Shown piece after piece: positions 4,456 through 28,167 of a DNA stretch of 28,213 nucleotides. The stretch covers positions 1-28,213 of the IMG/VR virus record IMGVR_UViG_3300001339_000001. One strand, given 5' to 3'. The notes below the pieces were generated by a model. The model had not been told where the DNA came from. It made no database searches and saw only the letters and a program-made list of their open reading frames with translations. The DNA is from a virus. The translations under genes and the position numbers were made by a program. Every line of letters starts with the position of its first letter. Position 1 is the stretch's first letter.

Positions 4456-5159
4456 TGAGTGAGGTAAAACCTACACTTGTTTCCTATAGTGCTGTAGAAG
4501 AAACAGTTCCTTTAAACTCTTGGTTAAGTAATTTTCCGTCAGGTAAATGGATAGATGCACAAAGTAGAAGCTGGTATTGGATTATGGTTAATGCTGTTAG
4601 TGTTCCCAGTGCTTATGAATATAGAGTGAAATTTGATGTTTTTGCAGAGAATATGACTTTGGTTTTTCCGTTTGTAGTTAAAACTTCAGACAAAAGCGTT
4701 AAAAAAGTTTTCATAGGTGATGTTGAGTATAAAGTAAGAAGTAAGGAAAATTACGGAGATAGGTTTATGGTGTCTGGTCAAGAGTTTAGCTTTAAAGTAG
4801 CAACAAGATACAAACTTACAAAACAAACTGTTCCAATTCTTATGCTTGGATACAAACAGGCGGTGTTTAAAAGTGTGGAATTTTTGACCAGCAAATACAT
4901 TAGGTTTGGATTTATTTCTTCTAAATTCAACACAATCAAAGCAATAGAAACAAATTGTGTAGCAACACGAAATATGCAAGCTTTGTATATTACTTCAAAC
5001 TTAGCAACTTGTAACTATGTTTCAACACATAATGCTTCAAGCACATTTAACAGCATTAATTCTTTTTCTGTTCCAGTTATAGCCAACTGTAGAGACACCT
5101 CTTGGGCAAGATTTGGAGGTATATGGCAATCATGCGAAACATGGATGCCATTGATTTAA
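4455..5159 (+). CDS. Beta-rich putative tail or virion surface protein, 234 aa
   Basis: No recognised family. The sequence is dominated by alternating hydrophobic/polar beta-strand patterns, with many Ser, Thr, Asn and aromatic residues, as in phage tail and fibre proteins. Residues 40-110 look like a beta-sandwich. Residues about 150-225 are Asn/Ser/Thr-rich with four cysteines, two near the C-terminus (CRDTSW and QSCETW). The start is a TAATG overlap with the upstream stop, so it is translationally coupled. It overlaps the next gene by about 30 bases in another frame. Position between portal and terminase supports a structural role. Confidence 0.65.
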   Translation: MSEVKPTLVSYSAVEETVPLNSWLSNFPSGKWIDAQSRSWYWIMVNAVSVPSAYEYRVKFDVFAENMTLVFPFVVKTSDKSVKKVFIGDVEYKVRSKENYGDRFMVSGQEFSFKVATRYKLTKQTVPILMLGYKQAVFKSVEFLTSKYIRFGFISSKFNTIKAIETNCVATRNMQALYITSNLATCNYVSTHNASSTFNSINSFSVPVIANCRDTSWARFGGIWQSCETWMPLI

Positions 5160-6277
5160 CTAAACTACCGATAGTGAATATTAAAGGTGATGCAGTGTAT
5201 TTGTCTGAAGAAGGATTTATTGTGTTTCCTCAGATTACGAGACAAAGGAGCCTTGAGATAACTACACTATCAAACAATTTTGTAGAAGGTTTTGTTTTGA
5301 ACGACAAAGTGTTTTTGGTTTTGAGTAGAAGCGATTTATATGATGTTTTTTACGAAAACACAATTAGAACTTTTACTAAGTTTGCAGGTGTGGTAGTATT
5401 TGGTGATGTTATCTTTTGTTTTGTAAATAACAACCGATGCTTAGTCATTAACACAGCAACAAACGAGACAAAAACTATAACAATTTTAGAACCTTCAAAC
5501 ATTGTTTATGTCTATCAGCTTTCGGCTTATCTGTTTGCAGTTATTACAACTCCTCCGACTACTTTGTATATCTATAGCATGGATGATGCAGGAAATATTG
5601 CAACAGCAAACGACGAAGATGTGATAATTCTTCCAGCTTATACTTACGGCGTGTTTGCAAATCCTAAAGTTAATCCAAGACTTGTTAAGAAAGACAATCT
5701 ACTTTATCTCATTGGTGATGATGCTACGGTTTTGCTTAGTCTTCAAATCTCAGATATGATTTACCTGAGAACTGAAGAGACAGCTTTGCAGAAAGTTAGC
5801 CTGTTTCCAGAATTTGAGGAACAAGGCGTGGAGTTTGTAAGAGAAACGCAGAACTTCTTTCTCTTCAGAAACGGTCTCTTTAATAACCTTGTGTGGATTA
5901 GCAAAGGGGACAAACGGATTTATTTCTCCACAAACTGCTTGTATTTGTCCCAGCAACATGTGATATATGACAAGAACCTTTACACCCTGCAAGATACAAT
6001 AGACCCAGAACAACCAAATATCCCACTTCAGAAAGAATTTACGGTGAAATTCAAAAAGAACGGACTAAACGGCATAAGCTTAGAAGTGCTTGAAACTACA
6101 GATTATGAGTTAGGACATATAGTAGTGCTTAGCAGGTTTCTTGACTTTCAAAACTTTTTCAACTACTTTGTTCATGCAACACGAACACATTACAGACTTG
6201 CTGTGCGTGGAGAAGAGTTTGTAGTTTCTTTATACACAGACCAAGCTTGTAGGATAAGGAGTTTTTATGCATGGTGA
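5132..6277 (+). CDS. Beta-rich putative tail protein (propeller/nozzle-like), about 381 aa
   Basis: The sequence reads as repeated short beta strands separated by turns (for example FAGVVVFGDVIFCFVNNNRC, then NIVYVYQLSAYLFAVITT, then NLLYLIGDDATVLLSL). This suits a beta-propeller such as those in podovirus tail nozzle proteins. I cannot assign a family. The start is uncertain: GGAGGT at 5115-5120 is only 2 bases from an ATG at 5123 and 11 bases from the ATG at 5132; both are in frame. The gene ends in GCATGGTGA, which overlaps the next small gene. With the adaptor at 10060 it could form the tail tube, but these genes are not adjacent. Confidence 0.65.
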   Translation: MRNMDAIDLTKLPIVNIKGDAVYLSEEGFIVFPQITRQRSLEITTLSNNFVEGFVLNDKVFLVLSRSDLYDVFYENTIRTFTKFAGVVVFGDVIFCFVNNNRCLVINTATNETKTITILEPSNIVYVYQLSAYLFAVITTPPTTLYIYSMDDAGNIATANDEDVIILPAYTYGVFANPKVNPRLVKKDNLLYLIGDDATVLLSLQISDMIYLRTEETALQKVSLFPEFEEQGVEFVRETQNFFLFRNGLFNNLVWISKGDKRIYFSTNCLYLSQQHVIYDKNLYTLQDTIDPEQPNIPLQKEFTVKFKKNGLNGISLEVLETTDYELGHIVVLSRFLDFQNFFNYFVHATRTHYRLAVRGEEFVVSLYTDQACRIRSFYAW

Positions 6278-11540: not shown

Positions 11541-11550
11541 GAGGTAAGTG

Positions 11551-13629
11551 ATGGCGAATATAGTAGTTCTACCTCGTATTGAAATTGACAATCCGTTTAG
11601 TGAGTTAGCTGAGATATTGAAAAACGAAACGATACCTATGATTGGACAACTTACTATGAATAAAGAACAAATAGCTATTCTTTCTGATACAAAACTAACA
11701 GACCATATACCTATTCTCAGACAATTTGCACCAGAGTTACTTACACAAGACGACAAAATTGACTGGAACAAGGTTGAAGAGTATTTACAGTCTGATGATT
11801 TATTTAAACAAGAAGTAGCAAATTATTTGATTAACGCAAGAAAAAGTAGAGAAGAGTTTGTTAATTTACCAATCGGTGTTAAGCTTGAAAAGTTAGGTTT
11901 TTATAGTGCAAAATCAAATCCTCAAATTTTAAAGAAAAACTTCATGGCACGAATAATCTCAGAAAAGTATCAAGAAATGATAAAAAACTCCAATCTGTCA
12001 GAAGATGCCAAATTGTTTCTCCTTGCTCATACACCAGAACTTGCAGAAAAAGTTGTGCAAAACCCAGCTTATTTTACTGCTTTTCTAAAGATACTTGACA
12101 AACACAGTAAGCAACAAAACATTGTACAACAAGAGAATAAAACCGAAACTGAACAAGACAATAAAGCTAGTAGTTGGCAGTTGAGTTTAGATGGGCAACA
12201 GAAGAAATTTGGTATTAAACTGGAAGAACCACGGCTTGTTATTCCACAAATTAGCTTTCCGCAGGTTTCTAAGACAGTAAAGCAAAAGAGAGTGAAACAA
12301 GAAGCTGGTATTAAGCAAGGTAGTGTAGATAAAATACGTTCTTTACCAAGCAGAACTGAGCAAGTTAAACCTCTATCAGAAGAAACTGATCAAACTAAAA
12401 ACAAAACAACCGAGAACCAGCAACTCCAAATGCAAACATCAGATGAAATATTCCTTCCATCAGAGGTTCTATATGCCCCTGATGTTAAAAACATGTTATC
12501 AAGAGAGGAATTAAAGTCTATAGGAAAACACGCCTTAATAGATTTAGCATTACTCGCTTTATTAAGAGACCCACGAGCTCTTTTTAGAACAGGAAAAGGA
12601 GTAATAGGAAAAACGGCTGAAAAAATAGCGAGAAAAAATGTCAAAATAGATAGAGAAATAGAAAGAAAAGTTTTGGAAGCTATGAAACCAAATCCAAATA
12701 CACCAACCACATTATCAAAAGAAAAGTCCGATTTCCATAAAAAACTTCAAAAAGCGAAATTAAGAGGAATGCAAAACACAACAAACCCTCCAGACCCACA
12801 AGAAGTATTTGAAATTTCAGGATACAAACAAAACAGAAAAGTATTTGAAATATCACATATACCCTTTAAAGAAACTCCAAATCCGCAAAAAGTTTTTGAG
12901 GTTTTAGGATATAAGCAAGGTGGAAAAGTATTTGAAATACCATATATACCTTCTAAAGAAACTCGTTGGGCGTTTGGTAAAGCAACTCCACCAAAACTTC
13001 ATCCCGAAGTGCAATATGAAAAATTAAGACAAAAAATGCTACCAGTTTTAGCACAAAAAGAAACTCGTTGGGAATTTGCTAATGCTAAACCTCCGGCTGT
13101 TGTTTTTAGAGAAGGAAGAATGACTGACTACATACCTCCTCAGTTTGAACGGGTTTCTGCTGTAAAACTTAAAGAACAAGCAAGACAAAAGAAACTGCCT
13201 GCAATTAAAGAAGATACAGCAATAATGCTTAAACCTAAAGAAACTCCCTACAAAGAAGCTGTCGCACAACAAGGTTTCAAGACTTCACAAATACTGGAAG
13301 AATTTTTGAAGAAGACACAACCCACACAACCCAAAGTAGAAACTAAAGAAGCTGTTCTTAAACCTATCAAAAAACTTGAAAACCTTGTTAAAGAAATACC
13401 AGAGGAAGCGAAAAATGACCCAGAAATTAGGCGAAGGTTTGTAGAAATTGTAAGAGATTTGAAGAAAATTTCAAAAGAAGCACCATTTAGAGATGTGTCT
13501 GATGATTTAAGGGTGTTAGATGCAAAAGCAGATGAACTTAAAGTTTTGCTTAGAAAAAAGTATGGCGAAACTAAAACTGCAACAAATGAAGTAGTATCAA
13601 ATACCAAAAGGAAGAAATCTAACAAATAA
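11551..13629 (+). CDS. Putative internal/ejection protein with repeats, 692 aa
   Basis: GGAGG at 11540-11544 supports the ATG at 11551. Residues 1-200 are helical and folded-looking. Residues 200-330 are Lys/Gln/Glu-rich and probably disordered. Residues about 325-350 hold a hydrophobic segment (HALIDLALLALL). Residues about 414-520 contain repeats: two copies of a VFEI-x-GYKQ-x-x-KVFEI-x-x-IP-x-KET unit, then two KETRWxF-x-x-A-x-PP units. The C-terminal 100 residues are charged helix with a basic tail. Large size, low complexity and place in the ejection gene run suggest a flexible internal virion protein that passes through the tail. I do not recognise a family. Confidence 0.6.
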   Translation: MANIVVLPRIEIDNPFSELAEILKNETIPMIGQLTMNKEQIAILSDTKLTDHIPILRQFAPELLTQDDKIDWNKVEEYLQSDDLFKQEVANYLINARKSREEFVNLPIGVKLEKLGFYSAKSNPQILKKNFMARIISEKYQEMIKNSNLSEDAKLFLLAHTPELAEKVVQNPAYFTAFLKILDKHSKQQNIVQQENKTETEQDNKASSWQLSLDGQQKKFGIKLEEPRLVIPQISFPQVSKTVKQKRVKQEAGIKQGSVDKIRSLPSRTEQVKPLSEETDQTKNKTTENQQLQMQTSDEIFLPSEVLYAPDVKNMLSREELKSIGKHALIDLALLALLRDPRALFRTGKGVIGKTAEKIARKNVKIDREIERKVLEAMKPNPNTPTTLSKEKSDFHKKLQKAKLRGMQNTTNPPDPQEVFEISGYKQNRKVFEISHIPFKETPNPQKVFEVLGYKQGGKVFEIPYIPSKETRWAFGKATPPKLHPEVQYEKLRQKMLPVLAQKETRWEFANAKPPAVVFREGRMTDYIPPQFERVSAVKLKEQARQKKLPAIKEDTAIMLKPKETPYKEAVAQQGFKTSQILEEFLKKTQPTQPKVETKEAVLKPIKKLENLVKEIPEEAKNDPEIRRRFVEIVRDLKKISKEAPFRDVSDDLRVLDAKADELKVLLRKKYGETKTATNEVVSNTKRKKSNK
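12793..13080 (+). repeat. Degenerate peptide/DNA repeats in ejection protein
   Basis: The 16 bases AAAGAAACTCGTTGGG occur at 12955-12970 and 13057-13072, and the shorter AAAGAAACTCC at 12868-12878 and 13237-13247. All encode KET[PR]. Upstream, two roughly 29-residue units share the V-F-E-[IV] and G-Y-K-Q motifs. The pattern points to internal duplication in a Pro/Lys-rich region. Confidence 0.75.
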
Positions 13630-19186: not shown

Positions 19187-19484
19187 GTCTCCTAACCTCC
19201 CTTTGTTTTAAACCAAGCACTTTTGCAATAATTTTGTAAGGCACACCAAGTTCTCTTGCCTTACGAATATATTCAATTTTTTGTTCATCAGATACAGTCC
19301 TAAGTTTTTTCCTGAGTGCCTGAGTTTTACCACCTGACCTTTCAAGCTTTTCTTTCCAAAGAATAGGTGCAATATTACAAGGATAGTCTCCTACAATATC
19401 CGCAATTTCGTTGATTGTCAGGTAAAGTTCAGCGTAAAGCTTTTTTACAAGTTCTTCAAGACTTTTCCCACGTATCTCCCACAT
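19158..19484 (-). CDS. Helix-turn-helix DNA-binding protein, 108 aa
   Basis: The ATG at 19484 is preferred to a TTG at 19502 because GAGGTGGAG lies about 10 bases upstream. Residues about 14-45 (LYAELYLTINEIADIVGDYP and onward) and 65-100 (RKARELGVPYKIIAKVLGLKQREVRRLEKSL) both read as helix-turn-helix modules. The second is like sigma-factor or homeodomain-type recognition helices. It lies between the polymerase gene (29-base overlap) and the small nuclease gene. A late-gene activator, repressor or DNA-end recognition factor are all possible; the motif alone does not choose between them. Confidence 0.6.
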   Translation of the reverse strand: MWEIRGKSLEELVKKLYAELYLTINEIADIVGDYPCNIAPILWKEKLERSGGKTQALRKKLRTVSDEQKIEYIRKARELGVPYKIIAKVLGLKQREVRRLEKSLSSRV

Positions 19485-22400
19485 TTGGCTGCTCCACCTC
19501 AAGTTTTATTTTAGCAACCCTATTACCAAACTCTTCTGCTTTTTCAAGACACCAATCCCACGCTTCTTCCATCTTCTCTTTAATCAGCTTAGCTAAGTCT
19601 TGTGCTTCTTTACTGTCTGCTTCCACCACTATCTCATCATGCACAAGATTAACTATCTTAAGGTCTGGTTTTGCTTCCTTGAGTAATACTATAGCTTTCT
19701 TGAACAGTTCCGCACCACTGCCTTGTATTTGATAATTGAGTAAGTCTTGTGGTTTCCACGCACGATATGTTCTGTTAAGCCATGTTTCGTTATCCACATA
19801 CTCGTTGTATTTAAAACGTTCATATGCTACTTGATGCTGTTCTGCGATTTTTGTATAATACTTCTTCCACTTTCTGACTATTTCATATGCTTGTTCCTCT
19901 GTCATATTAATACCATTCGTTATACAATATTCTGCGAAACCTTTTGGTGCAATACCATAAATAAGTCCAAAATTCGCAGATTTTCCAATTTGCCTTTCCT
20001 CCTTGCCTACCTCTTCTATGTTCTTTTCAAACAGTATTGATGCGGTAAGTTTGTGAAGGTCTATGCCTTGCTTAAATGCCTCAATAAATTCAGATTCATT
20101 CCAGATTACCCCTGCAAGTCTTAACTCTATCTGAGGAAAATCTGCAGTAATAAGCCTTTTGTCTTCTGTATCAAAGCCTATGAATTGTCTAAGTCTGCGT
20201 GGTATCTGTTGGAGATTTATATCGGAGCAAGACATTCTGCCTGAGGGCGCCGTTGTAGTAAAGAAGTTGCCATAAACTCTACCACCACTTCTTTTAGCTA
20301 TATCATAGAGGTCTTTTGCGAAAGCAAGAGATTTCTCCACTTGTCTTGCTTCAAGCACCCTTTTAGCCATTTCGTTGCCTTGCAAGGCTAAATCCATCAA
20401 CACATCTTTTGAAGAACTATCTACTCTAAAGAATTTCGCAGTTTGTTTTGGAGAGTTGTAATTGAACGGTATCTCTTTTTGCATCTGATTGCGAAGTTGA
20501 GTTAGTCTGTGTATTTCTTCTTCTAAAGCTTTCAATTTCACTGGCATACCATTTTGCGATGTTTCTACTACAATCTTTTGTGCTTGTTGGTCAAGCTGAT
20601 AAACAAGACTGTTAAGTGTGCTTGATGTTAGCTGTTCATAAAGCAAGTGTGGTATGTATGCATCAAGTGAAGCATAAAGAAGTTGTTCGTTGCTAAATGA
20701 ATGAAATATGTTGTTTTTAAAAGTCTCACGGATTTTTGTCTTGTCCATCGGATATTCTATACCAAGCAAATCTCGTGCCACATCATCAAGCCTAAAACCT
20801 TCACCCTTGGTTCCGTTTTGCTTAAACCTTTCATGATGCTGAACTTTTATTGCAAGCTGAACATCCACAATCTTTTTGTCTCTAAGTTGTTCGTATGTGT
20901 AGCCAAGAGCCCTTAAGTCAAAATCAAGACCCCAACCTCTTATTTCTGAGAACTTTAGAAGCCACTCTTTGAACCTTGTTGGTTTTTCTTTGAGAAGGTT
21001 AAGGCAATAAACTTTACGTTCGAAGTGTGGTTGATAGATGCTTGCAAGGACTGGTCTATCTCCGTCTGTTTCCAAATCAAAGTAAATTGGTTCGTTGAAT
21101 TTTGTTGGTATTTCATCAACGCTATCGCAAAGTACTGGTTCTACTAAAGCTTTTGGTTGAGGTTTAAGAATTGGTTTTGGTATATTCATCCTCTTAGGTA
21201 GAGATAGTCCATCCTCTCCTGTAAAGTGTTTTTCTAACTCATCTTCTTCCTCGTTGTCTTCATTTTCTTTATTTTCGTAATCAAACTCTTCTACTGGTGG
21301 TAAATTATCGTTTGGTGGTGTATTATCGTCATCATCTCCACTTGGTAAGTCTTCATCTGGTGGTGTATTATCACCGCCATTGTTATCTATAAAATCTTTC
21401 AAATCCTCAAACTTAAAACTTTCTACAAAAAGATTGTGCAACCTGCGTAGTCCTGCTTCACCATGTATAGAAAGCATAAGTTCTGTAAAAACTTCAAGAA
21501 TGCTTTTGTAGAATTCTGGATGGTGTTCTTTGATATAGGTTAGTCTTTCGTATTCACGAGTAACCATACCTTCAAACCAAGCTGGATTACGTCCTTCTAC
21601 AAAAATTGAACCAAGATAAACAAAAGCTTTTTTGTTTTCATAATACTTCATAAACAACAACTTCAAATACGGTTCAATATCTGTTGTTGGGACTTGCACA
21701 CCTGCAATATCAATAAGTTTTTTTATTGTCAATCCTCTAATTGTAGTTTTCTTTATCGGATTATTAGATGCATTGTAAAGCCCATCCGCAAGATCTCTCA
21801 GATAATCAATGATTTTGTTTAGCTTACTCTCTTCTTTTGGAAGAAGAGTATCATAAAACTTTGCAAACACATTACGAATATACTGCTCAAGTATAACAAA
21901 AACATTAGCTTTTTCCTCATCAGACAAACCAAGAAACTCTAAAAACACATGAATTGACGCATAAATAAGCTTCAAGTGATTGTCAAGAGACTTCACAATT
22001 CCGCGCAAAACTTTTGACCTTTTTTTGTCAAATTCATTTCTAAGGATTTCAACATCTTTATAATACTGAGCTAAAGCTTCTATATCTACATGATTTTCTA
22101 TGAAATCAATGAGTTTAAAAATGTAACCGTGGTTGTATTTGAGAATCGGTAATATCTCGTTTGTGTAAAATTCTACCAAAGCAGTGTTTTTTTGCTTTGG
22201 TAACTCATCAACATCAAGCACTATGCTTCTACGATAGAGACCTTCTCTGTTTTTACAAAGAACCTCTACAGCTAATGCGTTCTTTTCGCCACTAAACACA
22301 ACAGGAACCTGAATTGGGCTAAATCTCTCGTATGCAGTATCTTTTGAAGCCTCGTTTGCTATTGCATATATCATGTTCGCTATTTCTTCCTCTTTGTCTT

Positions 22401-24279
22401 TTCTCATCCTAAATTCATCAAGTGGAAGAGGCATGCCAATATTTCCAAATTCTCTGAGAATCTTTGCCGTTGTGGTTTCAGTAATTTGTATAACCTGTGG
22501 TGTGCCATACAGTGCGGATGCAATACGAAGTCTTGTAGTTTTACCTGTTGTAGTAAAACCACGTAAAAAGATTAGCACATTTGGTTCTGAGCTGGCTACA
22601 AACTTATCTCTGAAATACTCTTTCGTGATGTGTGAAATGAAGTGTCCGAGTAGTATAAGCATAATTGGATCTTTTGCTTTTACAACTCTGCGATACGCGT
22701 TTTTCCACGCTTCAAAGGAACCATTGACAATTGGTATGTAGTAGTTAAGTCTGTTTGTTCTATCCGACCACATGTAGAAATTCAAGTCTTCTGCCCTAAA
22801 TGAGTCCATGTTTGCTACTACCATATCCCACTTTCTCTTCAAATCGTTATATTTGTAGCCCGCCTTGTCTATTTCTCTCACTCCTCTTGCAAGTTGGAAA
22901 AGCGTAAGATAGTTCGTGAGAAGTTTCTTGAAAAGCTGTTGATTGTAGAAAGTCAAAACTATAAACTCGCTAAAATCTGTATTTGCTGAAGCAGTAAGGA
23001 CATAAGGAATAAACTCGTATTTATCTCTGTAGAAAATTTTGATGTATTTTTCCTTGCGGTTTGGTTTATTGTAAAGCACCACGTCTTCTATTTTGAAGAG
23101 TTCGCAAACAGGCTCGTTTGTGTCTTCTTTTACCCAAAGGTTTCGTTTTTCATCTACTTTGAAACCTTCCAGCCGTGTCTCAAGATAAAAGAGGTCTTTA
23201 AACCAGTTGGAGATTAGTTTTCTCTCTCCATATTCATCAAATATCCACCTTGCATATTGACAGTTCTTGCATTTTTCATCTGCGTCCACTACACGTCTAT
23301 GCACAAAAGAACAAGAGAAATAAGGCAAGGTTTCTCTATCTTTAAGCATCCATTTCAGAGTATTGCGAAATTGTTGTTCCGGTGCAATTACTACTTTACC
23401 TTTCCAAAATTTTGATTTTTGAAGAAACTCCTGTTTGTATTCCTCTTTTTGCGTAAGAACATACAAAAACGCATACTTCCAAGACAAAATAAACCACTCG
23501 TTGTATGTATGCGTTTCCCACTTTTCTTCTAAACTTCTTATTACAGGACACGCATTCCAAAGTGTAAGTGCCAATCCTTCCGATATTTGAGAAATTGGTA
23601 TTCTGCTATATTCTCTTCGTTTAACAGGAAGCCCGTTTATCAATATATCAGTATCGTAGTATTTGTTCATTTCTTCAAGAAGTTCTTTTTTCGTATAAGG
23701 TTCCCGTAATTCGTAAATTTCGTTGCTGTATCTTGTTGCAATACTGTATGTGTGGTCTATCTTATCTGCGTGTTTGCGAAGATTTGACTTAAGATCTTCA
23801 ACGTAGCTGTGTATCATGTAAAGAATTTCTTTATCATCACATTCTATAAAATCCTGCGTTATGTAGAAGATATGCCAACCTTTAATAGTTCTAAGAATGT
23901 GTGTTGGTTGTATAGGTAACAATTCTCTGTTATTGACAATCTCAAGTATTTGGTCAAGCTTTAATGGTTCGTCTATGTCAATTCGTATAGCTACCTTTGT
24001 CCGCTTAAAAAAGTCTTGTGCATTTCTTTTTTCAGCAAAAAGTGAAAGATAATACCTGTTGCGTTCTCTTGCGAGTTTGCAATATTCTTCAAACTCTTCT
24101 ACCCACTTTTCCTTGTTTGTTTCATTCCATCTGAGAAAAGCGTCCTTTATCTCCTTGAGTTCTATACCTTCAGGTGTTTGTGTTAGAACAAGCACATAAT
24201 CTGGAAAAGTATAACCATACTCATCCTCAACTATCAAACCTATCTTGACAAGCAGTTCAAAAAATGATATACTCCTCAT
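19456..24279 (-). CDS. polA: Primase-helicase-exonuclease-DNA polymerase A polyprotein (Pyrovirus type)
   Basis: A 1607-residue replication polypeptide. Residues about 75-185 show AEP primase motifs: D101-x-D103, G-W-H136 and I-D175. Four cysteines follow at 244, 323, 337 and 340. A DUF927/SF3-like ATPase has Walker A G574 to T581 (K580) and Walker B LDEF (D621). Residues about 963-1030 are an acidic linker with a repeated D-N-T-P-P-x-D/E motif. The C-terminal ~587 residues match the PyroPhage 3173 polymerase, by recall. They contain the 3'-5' exonuclease (YFDLETD, D1068/E1070; YASLDAY) and the polymerase motifs A (TADFPQIELR, D1380), B (K1433 in RQIGKSANFGLIYG) and C (VHDEIVVE, D1548). The exonuclease site looks intact, so proofreading is expected. 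The ATG shares ATGA with the upstream nuclease stop and follows GGAGGAGGAACAGCT. Confidence 0.95.
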   Translation of the reverse strand: MRSISFFELLVKIGLIVEDEYGYTFPDYVLVLTQTPEGIELKEIKDAFLRWNETNKEKWVEEFEEYCKLARERNRYYLSLFAEKRNAQDFFKRTKVAIRIDIDEPLKLDQILEIVNNRELLPIQPTHILRTIKGWHIFYITQDFIECDDKEILYMIHSYVEDLKSNLRKHADKIDHTYSIATRYSNEIYELREPYTKKELLEEMNKYYDTDILINGLPVKRREYSRIPISQISEGLALTLWNACPVIRSLEEKWETHTYNEWFILSWKYAFLYVLTQKEEYKQEFLQKSKFWKGKVVIAPEQQFRNTLKWMLKDRETLPYFSCSFVHRRVVDADEKCKNCQYARWIFDEYGERKLISNWFKDLFYLETRLEGFKVDEKRNLWVKEDTNEPVCELFKIEDVVLYNKPNRKEKYIKIFYRDKYEFIPYVLTASANTDFSEFIVLTFYNQQLFKKLLTNYLTLFQLARGVREIDKAGYKYNDLKRKWDMVVANMDSFRAEDLNFYMWSDRTNRLNYYIPIVNGSFEAWKNAYRRVVKAKDPIMLILLGHFISHITKEYFRDKFVASSEPNVLIFLRGFTTTGKTTRLRIASALYGTPQVIQITETTTAKILREFGNIGMPLPLDEFRMRKDKEEEIANMIYAIANEASKDTAYERFSPIQVPVVFSGEKNALAVEVLCKNREGLYRRSIVLDVDELPKQKNTALVEFYTNEILPILKYNHGYIFKLIDFIENHVDIEALAQYYKDVEILRNEFDKKRSKVLRGIVKSLDNHLKLIYASIHVFLEFLGLSDEEKANVFVILEQYIRNVFAKFYDTLLPKEESKLNKIIDYLRDLADGLYNASNNPIKKTTIRGLTIKKLIDIAGVQVPTTDIEPYLKLLFMKYYENKKAFVYLGSIFVEGRNPAWFEGMVTREYERLTYIKEHHPEFYKSILEVFTELMLSIHGEAGLRRLHNLFVESFKFEDLKDFIDNNGGDNTPPDEDLPSGDDDDNTPPNDNLPPVEEFDYENKENEDNEEEDELEKHFTGEDGLSLPKRMNIPKPILKPQPKALVEPVLCDSVDEIPTKFNEPIYFDLETDGDRPVLASIYQPHFERKVYCLNLLKEKPTRFKEWLLKFSEIRGWGLDFDLRALGYTYEQLRDKKIVDVQLAIKVQHHERFKQNGTKGEGFRLDDVARDLLGIEYPMDKTKIRETFKNNIFHSFSNEQLLYASLDAYIPHLLYEQLTSSTLNSLVYQLDQQAQKIVVETSQNGMPVKLKALEEEIHRLTQLRNQMQKEIPFNYNSPKQTAKFFRVDSSSKDVLMDLALQGNEMAKRVLEARQVEKSLAFAKDLYDIAKRSGGRVYGNFFTTTAPSGRMSCSDINLQQIPRRLRQFIGFDTEDKRLITADFPQIELRLAGVIWNESEFIEAFKQGIDLHKLTASILFEKNIEEVGKEERQIGKSANFGLIYGIAPKGFAEYCITNGINMTEEQAYEIVRKWKKYYTKIAEQHQVAYERFKYNEYVDNETWLNRTYRAWKPQDLLNYQIQGSGAELFKKAIVLLKEAKPDLKIVNLVHDEIVVEADSKEAQDLAKLIKEKMEEAWDWCLEKAEEFGNRVAKIKLEVEQPNVGDTWEKS
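21300..21385 (-). repeat. Repeated acidic Pro linker between helicase and polymerase
   Basis: The plus-strand 15-mer TGGTGGTGTATTATC occurs twice about 45 bases apart, encoding two copies of a D-N-T-P-P-[DN]-[ED]-x-L-P unit. It sits in a region that is nearly all Asp, Glu, Pro, Gly and Asn, so it probably marks a flexible hinge between the two halves of the polyprotein. Confidence 0.7.
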
Positions 24280-24986: not shown

Positions 24987-26168
24987 TCAAGCCTCCTGCG
25001 TCCTTCTTAAATATTCTACTACATTTCGTTTGCTTTTCAAGATACGTAGCACTGCTTTGTCAATTCCGTTTTGAACCAAGTAATAGACAACCACTTTTTT
25101 GTCTTGTCCTGTCCGATAAACCCTACCTATCGCTTGTTCAAGGTCTGTATATTTTAGAGGCAACGATGCAAAAATAATATTTTTGTAATTCCGCTGTAGG
25201 TTTGCACCCTCTCCCATTGCATATGTGGAAACAATTGGTTTATCCTGCTTTGTTATAACTTGCATCCGATACTCCGTAGGTGTTTGACCAGTAATGCAAT
25301 ACACCTTGTTCTCAAACCTCTCCTTAACTTTATTCACAAACTCTACAAACAAGCTAAAAACAATCGTATTTGGATTTTCAGACAAAAAGTCAATCACAAA
25401 CTCAAACTTTTCTTTTGTCAAAGCTGAAGCACGATACTCTTTTATGAAATTTGCAAGTTCATAGTTGCTAAGTTCGTATTCTAATTCAACTGGTTGTAAT
25501 TCAACAGTAATTTCTTGCAACGGTGGTAGTTCCAACACATCCTCCCTTCTTACAACGTGAGCATATTTTTCAAACCATTGCTTTAGTTCCTGCTTAAATT
25601 CAGGTCTCAACAAACCTCGCGGTTTAAAATACTCATCAAGTTCGAAATAAGCATTTATAAATTGGCTGTAGCTTTTGTATTTTTGGAACATTTCATCCCA
25701 TGGATTTATCACTTTAAGCTGAGCATAGATTTTATGAAACATGTCTATTGGAGTTCCTGACAAAAGCAAAACTTCTTTGATTTTTCTTTCTATGCGTAAT
25801 TGTATTGCTTTACGCGTCCATTGTGTTTTGGTATAACTCAAACGATGAGCCTCATCAAAAACTACTAAATCAAATTTGCTAAAATCGTTTATCTTATCTC
25901 TGAACCACTCATAAGTAACAATCTCAATGTTTATGTTGAAGTATCTGTTATCATGTAACCAAGACTGATGTGCTGATTTCGGTGCCACTACTAAAACTCT
26001 ATTAAAACCATGATATTTACATATGGCTAAAGCACCAGCAGTTTTGCCACAACCCACTTCCCACGCAAGATACTTTTTCCGTGGGAACAGGTTGACAGCC
26101 TGTTCTTGGTGTTTAAAAAGTTTGATTTCCGACATGGTTTGTGATATATTATATTTTACTTCTACCAT
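24987..26168 (-). CDS. SNF2/DEAH-type superfamily 2 helicase, 393 aa
   Basis: An ATP-driven DNA translocase or helicase. The N-terminal RecA-like lobe has a Q-like HQEQAV at 20-25, motif I VGCGKT at 38-43, motif Ia VVAPKSAHQSW, motif II DEAH at 105-108 and motif III LLSGTP. The C-terminal lobe has VFSLFVEFVNKV, TYAMGEGANLQ (motif V) and QAIGRVYRTGQDK (motif VI), typical of SNF2-like proteins. The length is minimal with no extra domains. Start ATG at 26168 follows AAGGAGGTGTTGCC. With the adjacent Fe-S nuclease it could form an end-processing or branch-migration pair, as in other phage replication cassettes. Confidence 0.9.
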   Translation of the reverse strand: MVEVKYNISQTMSEIKLFKHQEQAVNLFPRKKYLAWEVGCGKTAGALAICKYHGFNRVLVVAPKSAHQSWLHDNRYFNINIEIVTYEWFRDKINDFSKFDLVVFDEAHRLSYTKTQWTRKAIQLRIERKIKEVLLLSGTPIDMFHKIYAQLKVINPWDEMFQKYKSYSQFINAYFELDEYFKPRGLLRPEFKQELKQWFEKYAHVVRREDVLELPPLQEITVELQPVELEYELSNYELANFIKEYRASALTKEKFEFVIDFLSENPNTIVFSLFVEFVNKVKERFENKVYCITGQTPTEYRMQVITKQDKPIVSTYAMGEGANLQRNYKNIIFASLPLKYTDLEQAIGRVYRTGQDKKVVVYYLVQNGIDKAVLRILKSKRNVVEYLRRTQEA

Positions 26169-26189
26169 GGCAACACCTCCTTAAGGGTT

Positions 26190-26218: not shown

Positions 26219-26917
26219 TCAAAGTTCAAGAGGTGTATCGTCTAAATCGCTGTCAGTTGTGTTTTTGAAAAGTGAGTTATTGTATTGTGTTCTAAACCGC
26301 TCAAATTCGGACAGGTACTCATAAGCCACTTTAAGAACATCATCAGAAACAATCTCAACAGACTTCACAGACACTACTTTTGGTTCAGACCATATTTTCA
26401 TACCACTTTTTTGCTTTACCAACTTCACATCTAACTGATGCCCAGTCAAAGTTAAGATGTTTTCTTCCCTCATGAAATTAATCAGCACTTTCAACGCCGA
26501 CCTCTTTGCCTCCCACACTGCCCTTAGTAATTCTTTTGAAACTATTACAATAGGAAGAACCCACGAGTTAATCACAGAGAATTCAGCTTCATCCAGTCTC
26601 TTCAATGCTTCAGCAAGCAGGTTTCCTGTAAATACTCCATTCATGCTATACAATACCAGAGCCTTAGACCGTTCCCTTGGTGTATAAATTTGCGATTTGA
26701 GAACTAAATTTCCGTTTGAATTAAATACCGTAGTTTGCATATACACCTTCACAACAAATAATGAAATCTGGTTTCCAAGTTCTTGTCCCTCTAACACCCA
26801 TACAGTTTTATCGTGGTCTATTTTTAACTGCGGTGTTGGGTAGCTTAAAACTTGAGTAGAGCTTTGCTTTACTTCCTCTTGCAAAATTTGTTTCCAAGCG
26901 CTTCTGATGTCTTGCAT
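26219..26917 (-). CDS. Putative single-stranded DNA-binding-like protein, 232 aa
   Basis: Unrecognised by family. Residues about 30-100 are beta-rich (KTVWVLEGQELGNQISLFVVKVYMQTT, then GNLVLKSQIYT), compatible with an OB-like fold. The middle is alpha/beta, and the last 12 residues are acidic and end in hydrophobics (DSDLDDTPLEL), which recalls the acidic tail of SSB proteins that recruits partners. It lies directly upstream of helicase, nuclease and polymerase genes, where a phage SSB would be expected. The start is ATG after AAGGAGGTGTAGCC. The tail and context are suggestive only. Confidence 0.55.
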   Translation of the reverse strand: MQDIRSAWKQILQEEVKQSSTQVLSYPTPQLKIDHDKTVWVLEGQELGNQISLFVVKVYMQTTVFNSNGNLVLKSQIYTPRERSKALVLYSMNGVFTGNLLAEALKRLDEAEFSVINSWVLPIVIVSKELLRAVWEAKRSALKVLINFMREENILTLTGHQLDVKLVKQKSGMKIWSEPKVVSVKSVEIVSDDVLKVAYEYLSEFERFRTQYNNSLFKNTTDSDLDDTPLEL

Positions 26918-26932
26918 GGCTACACCTCCTTT

Positions 26933-27175
26933 TTAGATTTCATTTCTAACTAGATATTTTGCTATCAACTCAGCAAACTCTTGCACAACAACAATGTCTT
27001 TCTTAAGTTGCTTGTAGTCATACACAAACTCAAGTAGCTCATAAACAAAATCTCGTGTCTCATCTGGCTTAAAACCTATCTGTAGTTTTTGTTCTAACTC
27101 CTGCCTAATACGATAAACTTCAACAGTAGAAGAAGCTTCAAGTAGCTTAGTAATATAGCTTGGGTTCCTCCTCAT
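26933..27175 (-). CDS. Small hypothetical early protein, 80 aa
   Basis: Unrecognised, predicted all-helical and charged (for example VEVYRIRQELEQKL and LEFVYDYKQLKKDI). The ATG at 27175 has a strong AGGAGGTGTTGCC leader that overlaps the stop of the upstream gene. It is the first gene after the consensus promoter at 27218-27246, so it may be expressed from that promoter along with the replication genes. Small helical early proteins of this kind are often regulators or host-takeover factors, but nothing here shows which. Confidence 0.65.
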   Translation of the reverse strand: MRRNPSYITKLLEASSTVEVYRIRQELEQKLQIGFKPDETRDFVYELLEFVYDYKQLKKDIVVVQEFAELIAKYLVRNEI

Positions 27176-27187
27176 GGCAACACCTCC

Positions 27188-27874
27188 TCATTGGTTTTGG
27201 TGTATTTGGTGTATTATATTATACCACAAATTTTGAAACTTGTCAAGTAGTTTCTGATGAGTAGCAATCCATACACCACGCCTGAGTTCTATTGGTAAAG
27301 AAGCGTACCAATCTCGCAGTTCTGGGTAGTGTCTGAAATTAAGAAATACTCTGACCGCCTCACCAAGCTTATACCTCTTATATTCGTATTCTCTAATAGT
27401 CCATGCCCTAATTTCATCAGGTTTGTTTTTCAACTCCTGCAAAACAGACAGAATAACTTCACTACTGAAAAAACCCTGTTTATAAAGTTCCGCTATTCTA
27501 CCAAATAAGTAGAATGTCAAATTAACAGCTGGTTCTTTAAGTTCTTTTTTCTGTAGTTCGTGTAGTTCAATAGTCTCAAGTTTTTTGTTCACCCAGTAAT
27601 GCAGCCACCTCTTGAATTGTTTCGGAAAGTCTAACCATTTCTTATGTAATTCCACATCGTCAGTATAAATGACTTTCCAAATAGCACCTTTCAATTCTTC
27701 TCTTACCGTCTCTTCAGGAACGTTTATTATGTCTTCTTCTTTCATAGCTAAGACCCTTTTTATGGCTTCTCTCGTTGCATCCTGAAGCTGGTTTCCAAAC
27801 TCTCTGATGTGTTCTTCTTTAATATAAGTGGCTATCTCGTAATACTTTTCTGTAATGCCTCTAAACTTCCTCAT
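27188..27874 (-). CDS. Hypothetical early protein, 228 aa
   Basis: No family recognised. It is helical and rich in Trp, Tyr, Lys and Glu, with aromatic-charged segments (FPKQFKRWLHYWVNKKLE near residues 83-100, and FLNFRHYPELRDWYASLP near 180). It starts at an ATG with AGGAGGTGAAGCC, overlapping the 98-aa gene stop by 4 bases. Its last 20 codons hold the consensus promoter for the downstream genes. A DNA-associated role is possible but not shown. Confidence 0.65.
   Translation of the reverse strand: MRKFRGITEKYYEIATYIKEEHIREFGNQLQDATREAIKRVLAMKEEDIINVPEETVREELKGAIWKVIYTDDVELHKKWLDFPKQFKRWLHYWVNKKLETIELHELQKKELKEPAVNLTFYLFGRIAELYKQGFFSSEVILSVLQELKNKPDEIRAWTIREYEYKRYKLGEAVRVFLNFRHYPELRDWYASLPIELRRGVWIATHQKLLDKFQNLWYNIIHQIHQNQ
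27197..27214 (-). promoter_or_regulatory. Tandem 9-bp operator-like repeat at transcription start
   Basis: On the minus strand ATACACCAA occurs twice in direct tandem, from just after the -10 box across the expected start site. A repressor bound here would block transcription. No binding protein is identified; the HTH protein at 19158-19484 is one candidate. Confidence 0.5.
27218..27246 (-). promoter_or_regulatory. Perfect-consensus sigma70 promoter for replication genes
   Basis: On the minus strand TTGACA (27241-27246) and TATAAT (27218-27223) are separated by exactly 17 bases, with TG one base before the -10 box as well. It lies inside the 3' end of the 228-aa gene and directs transcription toward the 80-aa, SSB-like, helicase, nuclease and polymerase genes. 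Confidence 0.8.
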
Positions 27875-28167
27875 GGCTTCACCTCCTGCAGTAGTTTTTC
27901 GTTAAGTTTCTTAAATACTGCGTATTGCTGAGTTATTGGTGTGAAAAAGAAAAAATCTCGTAAATCTTCATCTTTTGTGGTCAAATAAACCCGCTTTCTG
28001 CCTCGTTTCTGTTGTTTCAATCTTCTAACTTCATCAAGAGTTAGAGGTTCTGGTTGTTCTCGAAGAATTTCTCTTAGCAAAGCTTTCACCACCGCCGAGT
28101 GAGGCAGTGGTGAGATTTCAAAAAAGAGTGGGATTGACTTCTGAAGTTTGGTTCTCAGGTTTCGCAT
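27871..28167 (-). CDS. Hypothetical early protein with basic helix, 98 aa
   Basis: Unrecognised. A helical N-terminal half is followed by a basic, DNA-binding-like segment (LDEVRRLKQQKRGRKRVYLTT, residues about 44-64) and an aromatic Phe-rich turn (DLRDFFFFTP). The ATG at 28167 is preceded by GGGGGTG. It is the first complete minus-strand gene in the window, and more early genes probably lie to the right. A stable hairpin lies within its coding sequence. The basic segment suggests nucleic-acid binding, as inference. Confidence 0.6.
   Translation of the reverse strand: MRNLRTKLQKSIPLFFEISPLPHSAVVKALLREILREQPEPLTLDEVRRLKQQKRGRKRVYLTTKDEDLRDFFFFTPITQQYAVFKKLNEKLLQEVKP
28086..28113 (-). repeat. 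11-bp hairpin in early gene
   Basis: In the minus-strand mRNA, UCACCACUGCC pairs with GGCGGUGGUGA, with one U-G wobble and a 6-base loop. It is GC-rich, inside the 98-aa coding sequence, and has no U-tract after it. It could be an RNA-processing, antitermination or regulatory element, or reflect chance in coding DNA. Confidence 0.5.

Follow-up and report, generated by a model that had tools for sequence, protein, structure and literature searches.

Whether one polypeptide could prime, unwind, extend and proofread DNA for a virus is the question raised by a long open reading frame (ORF) in the 28,213-base virus record IMGVR_UViG_3300001339_000001 of IMG/VR, the whole of which is referred to here as the window. 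A sequence-only reading had described this ORF, of 1607 amino acids, as a primase, helicase, proofreading exonuclease and polymerase in one chain, leaving the strand unstated; its coding strand is the minus strand. The frame was confirmed and all of the listed elements were located in it (Table 1), with Pfam supporting the family A polymerase (DNA_pol_A), the exonuclease, and a DUF927 domain. We consider it likely that the product is the one-chain replicase of a "Pyrovirus", in which an archaeo-eukaryotic primase (AEP) domain primes, a DUF927 motor unwinds, and a tethered proofreading PolA carries out synthesis. The observation thus stands and its interpretation is partly supported; the chain may reasonably be read as a near-complete replisome core.

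In its predicted structure, the front end of the chain has the archaeo-eukaryotic primase fold. The AlphaFold2 model of residues 1–366 was confident (predicted local distance difference test [pLDDT] 86.4, predicted template modeling score 0.63), and a Foldseek search with this model ranked S-2L PrimPol first (E 2e-3, probability 1.00), followed by LigD polymerase and CRISPR-associated PrimPol. VIA-align superposed the model on cyanophage S-2L PrimPol over 160 residues at 3.4 Å (Z 10.9), while other AEP matches had Z scores of 7.6 (CAPP), 6.7 (RepB'), and 6.2 (PriS). Among the 50 PDB matches listed, 49 are AEPs, as we take them to be from their titles and general knowledge, with HP0184 as the sole exception. 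Entry A0A5Q0TXA6 of BFVD is 85% identical to residues 1–365. No primase profile was found in the N-terminal half by Pfam, PHROGs, or PDB searches (phmmer/hmmsearch), and residues 1–449 gave no Pfam match above the curated cut-off. The sequence-only reading had named the lack of an AEP fold in a structure prediction as grounds against its AEP-like N-terminus; the confident model and the fold comparison bear this N-terminus out.

The chain contains R99-I-D101-I-D103 and, at residues 133–136, KGWH. Motif I (D101-x-D/E103) and motif II (KGWH136) are present in 7/7 relatives at roughly 25% identity, and a seven-row alignment (A7) showed R99, D101, K133-G-W-H136, T182-R183, C244, W254-E255, H257, C323, C337, and C340 to be invariant. 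The seven relatives that keep the motifs and the four cysteines include L030, a contig from a Thermocrinis metagenome-assembled genome (MAG), whose known sequence has no polA. In the order of strands and helices, D101/D103 lie where strand 91–102 ends, H136 lies on strand 134–146, and D172/D175 lie at strand 173–176. At this last site, the candidate motif III, position 175 is K in relative L010 and position 172 is E in L030, with at least one acidic residue kept in each relative. R183 is followed by Y, I, or F, consistent with motif IV (Rh) in enzymes of the PrimPol-PV1 type (PMC5862659). The domain may synthesize primers de novo.

Downstream of the AEP domain, a helical module carries the four invariant cysteines and is followed by a beta-rich stretch. 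The spacing of C244, C323, C337, and C340 is 79, 14, and 3, and that of the 4Fe-4S ligands of yeast PriL (C336, C417, C434, and C474) is 81, 17, and 40 (PMC2852410). Four conserved cysteines, with the first pair about 80 residues apart, are a feature of the PriL type, which is only suggestive of a PriL-like metal or Fe-S domain; zinc binding, or a helix bundle of the pRN1/NrS-1 type, are possible alternatives. No PriL structure was present among the fold matches of the 1–366 model, but these matches fell on the AEP domain (residues 4–209), so this was not counted against a likeness to PriL.

The central part of the chain matched the DUF927 profile of Pfam with 40.8 bits, against a cut-off of 22.6, as did 6/6 aligned relatives and L030. 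An AlphaFold2 model of residues 1–965 was poor (pLDDT 48); in this low-confidence model, residues 563–691 resembled AAA+ folds and residues 814–897 a winged helix, and the top fold row, MCM4, had a Z score of 6.2 but a root-mean-square deviation of 19 over both domains. Accordingly, of the helicase proposed by the sequence-only reading, the Walker A/B ATPase was recovered as DUF927, while a superfamily 3 fold was not established, as only DUF927 was matched, alongside weak AAA+/MCM fold matches. A DUF927 protein of S. aureus has been cited as a bona fide helicase by Kazlauskas et al. (PMC5862659). The DUF927 motor would unwind the fork and may do so as a hexamer. DnaB_C, Toprim_2, and the DnaG zinc ribbon were absent from nine related records, in which controls scored, and PF13155, PF01807, and PF03796 were not found in the window. 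This absence of DnaG/DnaB-type genes is supporting rather than conclusive, since several of the nine records are fragments.

The full-length frame recurs in two other records, which rules out chance or assembly error as its source. An independent 40,321-bp viral contig (L002/G007) encodes an intact 1608-aa version that is 86% identical, and a 41,208-bp record (G001; TGBSV/GBS41) encodes a 1564-aa version with a full-length identity of 41%. In a Nei-Gojobori comparison with L002, every segment past residue 230 had a ratio of nonsynonymous to synonymous substitution rates (dN/dS) of 0.03–0.06, apart from the linker (0.38); in residues 1–230, synonymous sites were saturated and dN was 0.155. These values point to purifying selection along the chain outside the linker.

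Scanning for the polymerase motif DFPQIELR also yielded split relatives (L005, L007, and L010), in which a primase-helicase gene (953–960 aa) is separate from an adjacent polymerase gene (546–548 aa), the order of primase-helicase and then polA being kept. A gene for 92–95 aa without a Pfam match lies between the split genes in L007 (4021–4299) and L010 (2943–3230), and possibly encodes an accessory or coupling factor; just past polA, L010 carries a gene with a PAPS reductase domain (4862–5902). The protein encoded by L030 (2958–6338) has 1126 aa, comprises AEP, four-cysteine, and DUF927 parts, and terminates in DDDIWRDLIDRF. The next ORF on this contig, which is possibly an uncharacterized Aquificota mobile element, is incomplete and has neither a Pfam nor a polymerase match. 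L030 was the only relative found when 136 Aquificota genomes were searched with the N-terminal alignment. A further 80 polymerase loci contained no other chain joined to this primase-helicase module; when polymerase ORFs were sorted by N-terminal extension, the others that headed the list reached at most 939 aa. Searches by tblastn found no match for the N-terminal half (969 aa of the window, and relatives) in cultured phages, nor for that of one relative in plasmids, and a conserved-motif scan of viral contigs (L032–L037) added no new relatives. An Aquificota DUF927 protein (L039) was rejected as a relative, since by eye it resembles a different, Toprim-type protein. In a tree, the fused N-terminal halves clustered with full support and L030 formed a long branch, so that the change may have been either fusion or fission.

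The two halves are joined by an acidic, proline-rich linker, with 24 D/E versus 2 K/R among the 60 residues 963–1022. Behind it, all three exonuclease motifs (DLE 1068–1070, D1121, and Y..D 1202–1206) and the polymerase motifs A (DFPQIELR, 1380), B (RQIGKSANFG, 1429), and C (VHDE, 1546) are present. In the split relatives, the primase-helicase terminates in a short acidic tail whose last residue is Phe (...EIGEVDF, ...EIEEVDF, and ...EPDIDF). These tails resemble the acidic tail through which the T7 gp4 helicase holds its family A polymerase (PMC12593628). By analogy, the linker of the fused chains may be a polymerase-docking helicase tail in permanently joined form. T7 gp4 and gp5 likewise couple a primase-helicase to a family A polymerase, but as two proteins, with a TOPRIM primase and a RecA-type helicase.

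The chain corresponds to the published "Pyrovirus"/3173 PolA polyprotein, as the sequence-only reading had correctly proposed, so that neither the fusion nor the DUF927 helicase is new. The available portion of Palmer 2020 (PMC7689252) describes a 1606-aa OS3173 polyprotein with a DUF927 domain, "primase and/or helicase" motifs, and a neighboring nuclease and helicase (as here, Cas4-like and SF2, respectively), with fused forms in TOSV and TGBSV and separate forms in AJCSV and ACSV. The Pol of OS3173 (TOSV, TGBSV) and OCT 1608-14 Pol (KC440900) belong to the same family of DUF927-exo-PolA fusions of 1606–1608 aa. The virus is a hot-spring "Pyrovirus" of the TOSV group and probably a Thermocrinis virus. 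Unlike the present analysis, that portion of the text describes no AEP fold or four-cysteine module. To this extent, the published description is extended here by the AEP fold, by the conservation of its motifs, by the module with four cysteines, and by the comparison of tails and linker, although an earlier AEP assignment is possible.

The closest analogues are GP55 of phage 1706 (AEP and PolB) and Prex of the apicomplexan plastid. The primase-helicase of Prex is of the T7 gp4/Twinkle (DnaG/DnaB) type. Its likeness to the present chain, also raised by the sequence-only reading, holds for the order of primase, helicase, exonuclease, and polymerase and for the kinship of the polymerase (PDB 5dku, E 8.7e-36), but not for the DnaG (TOPRIM) primase and DnaB helicase families, which were not found here. 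GP55 of this lactococcal phage (PMC12205980, 2025) is likewise a single chain that unites the functions of AEP primase, helicase, polymerase, and 3'-5' exonuclease, all four of which have been demonstrated by assay. It differs in its order (helicase-AEP-alpha-helical domain-PolB), in lacking a PriL or helix-bundle domain, and in its family B polymerase, the polymerase here being of family A. AEPs of the PolpTN2/PrimPol-PV1 supergroup (PMC5862659, PMC3973330) share the DxD motif and the Rh motif IV; PolpTN2 has, in addition, a PriL-like part with four cysteines, as well as Gln in motif II, where the present chain has His, and in the PrimQH and All3500 families DUF927 is the partner helicase. 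Unlike here, no proofreading family A polymerase is attached in this supergroup.

In the one-chain replicase that we favor, the N-terminal AEP would lay primers on the exposed strand, aided by the four-cysteine helical module, while the DUF927 AAA+-type helicase with its winged helix would open the fork. The flexible acidic linker would tether the exonuclease and PolA, which would extend the primers with proofreading and copy the strand opened by the motor; the primer would presumably be handed over within the chain. GP55 demonstrates that a single chain with four activities can work, in its case with a family B polymerase (PMC12205980). Several points weigh against this reading. Motif III is the weak point of the AEP assignment, as neither candidate Asp is invariant, the helicase half was modeled poorly, and no priming or unwinding assays were found in the literature examined. 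The nine related records may be incomplete, and hosts could supply primase and helicase. In addition, the published enzyme has been called a polyprotein and a truncated 3173 exo/pol is active alone (PMC10423840), so the N-terminal half may act separately. A fuller version, which we put forward tentatively and with some doubt, holds that the chain is an uncut, complete family A replicase, with a PriL-like Fe-S AEP, intramolecular hand-over of primers, and a DUF927 ring at the fork carrying several polymerases.

Cleavage in the acidic linker would instead yield a primase-helicase of about 110 kDa and an exo/polymerase of about 65 kDa as separate proteins, as for Prex, which is cut into three enzymes in the apicoplast (PMC9631997). 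In support, the proline-rich, acidic linker is under weak constraint, each half functions as a gene of its own in the split relatives, and the activity of the truncated 3173 enzyme points the same way. We nonetheless find this somewhat unlikely: neither a protease nor a conserved site for cleavage was observed, three divergent records all retain the fusion, and the available text of Palmer 2020 (PMC7689252), from which the string "cleav" is absent, shows no data on cleavage. Separate expression of the polymerase from internal starts near the linker was rejected, as these starts are not conserved; the ATG at residue 1031 has a Shine-Dalgarno-like sequence that lacks spacing, and L002 has no such sequence there.

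Alternatively, the AEP domain might be degenerate in fold, or might serve as a PrimPol-like accessory that reprimes or bypasses damage, with replication left to host primase and helicase. In favor of this, AEPs are diverse in function, motif III varies among the relatives, and S-2L PrimPol, which ranked first in the fold comparison, is itself a primase-polymerase. This is unlikely given that motifs I, II, and IV have stayed invariant or changed conservatively among relatives at 25% identity, that the domain is joined to or adjoins the helicase and polymerase in all viral relatives, and that no other primase was found in the nine records. Practically negligible is the chance that an assembly or frameshift artefact merged two neighboring genes, a sequencing error that the sequence-only reading had itself raised and to which the natural relatives with two adjacent genes lend some color. 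It is refuted by the independent fused copies, comprising three fused records and the 1606-aa ORF in the published text available, and the full-length, PCR-amplified variant OCT 1608-14 Pol, which includes the DUF927 domain, has polymerase activity (PMC10423840).

Table 1. Coordinates in the window of the ORF, its predicted domains and motifs, and neighboring genes.
Feature	Residues	Position	Strand	Basis
Whole ORF, predicted primase-helicase-exonuclease-polymerase	1–1607	19456..24279	minus	ATG start, 1607 aa, no internal stop
Predicted AEP catalytic domain	1–230	23590..24279	minus	AlphaFold2 pLDDT mostly 85–97; S-2L PrimPol Z 10.9
AEP motif I, D101-I-D103 (second position E in G001)	101–103	23971..23979	minus	On strand E91-102
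AEP motif II, K133-G-W-H136	133–136	23872..23883	minus	Invariant in 7 relatives
Candidate AEP motif III, D172-K-I-D175	172–175	23755..23766	minus	Strand E173-176; neither Asp alone invariant
Candidate AEP motif IV, R183 + hydrophobic (Y/I/F)	183	23731..23733	minus	Invariant; motif definition PMC5862659
Helical module with C244, C323, C337, C340	231–366	23182..23589	minus	Invariant cysteines; 1–366 model
Beta-rich stretch	367–449	22933..23181	minus	Low-confidence model
DUF927 ATPase/helicase domain	450–700	22180..22932	minus	Pfam DUF927 2.8e-10; weak AAA+/MCM fold matches
Walker A, GFTTTGKTT	574–582	22534..22560	minus	Motif
Walker B, PLPLDE	617–622	22414..22431	minus	Motif
Helical region, probable winged helix ~814–897	701–962	21394..22179	minus	MCM4 winged-helix match Z 5.8, 70 residues, 2.8 Å
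Acidic, proline-rich linker, fast evolving	963–1045	21145..21393	minus	Composition; dN/dS 0.38
3'-5' proofreading exonuclease	1046–1225	20605..21144	minus	Pfam DNA_pol_A_exo1 3.2e-6; motifs
Family A DNA polymerase	1226–1607 + stop	19456..20604	minus	Pfam DNA_pol_A 1.6e-57; motifs; Prex and Pol I relatives in PDB
Cas4/RecB-like PD-(D/E)XK nuclease, 235 aa		24276..24983	minus	PDDEXK_1 8.7e-16
SNF2/DEAD-type (SF2) helicase, upstream of nuclease gene		24987..26168	minus	Profile searches

The start of the ORF overlaps the end of the PD-(D/E)XK nuclease gene by 4 nt. This Cas4-like nuclease has, by eye, cysteines at both ends (SRCPYAL; GYCQFCHYKKHC), which could bind an Fe-S cluster. A uniform block of ribosome-binding site and start codon (AGGAGGTG....GCCATG) precedes four minus-strand genes (26166–26189, 26915–26938, 27173–27196, and 27872–27895), whose translation starts are unusually alike. 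A gene for 693 aa without a Pfam match (11548–13629) contains imperfect direct repeats of 87 nt and 55 nt at 12788–13094. At about 18.6–19.5 kb, gene strand switches from plus to minus and the cumulative GC skew peaks, which fits the bidirectional replication proposed for the Pyrovirus group.

The polymerase part of this family is a commercial heat-stable enzyme for reverse transcription PCR and loop-mediated isothermal amplification, used without the N-terminal half. Were this half to work as an AEP primase and helicase, a single hot-spring protein could start DNA synthesis without added primers and complete it, which may be of use in isothermal amplification. With the same genes occurring both fused and split, the family offers a testable case of how replisome parts join and separate; in malaria parasites, a related polymerase is attached, in the same order, to an apparently unrelated primase-helicase. 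Should the uncut replicase prove true, it would be a heat-stable family A counterpart of GP55, and the 3173/Prex polymerase lineage would have become joined to unrelated primase-helicases on two independent occasions, with the order of parts the same each time.

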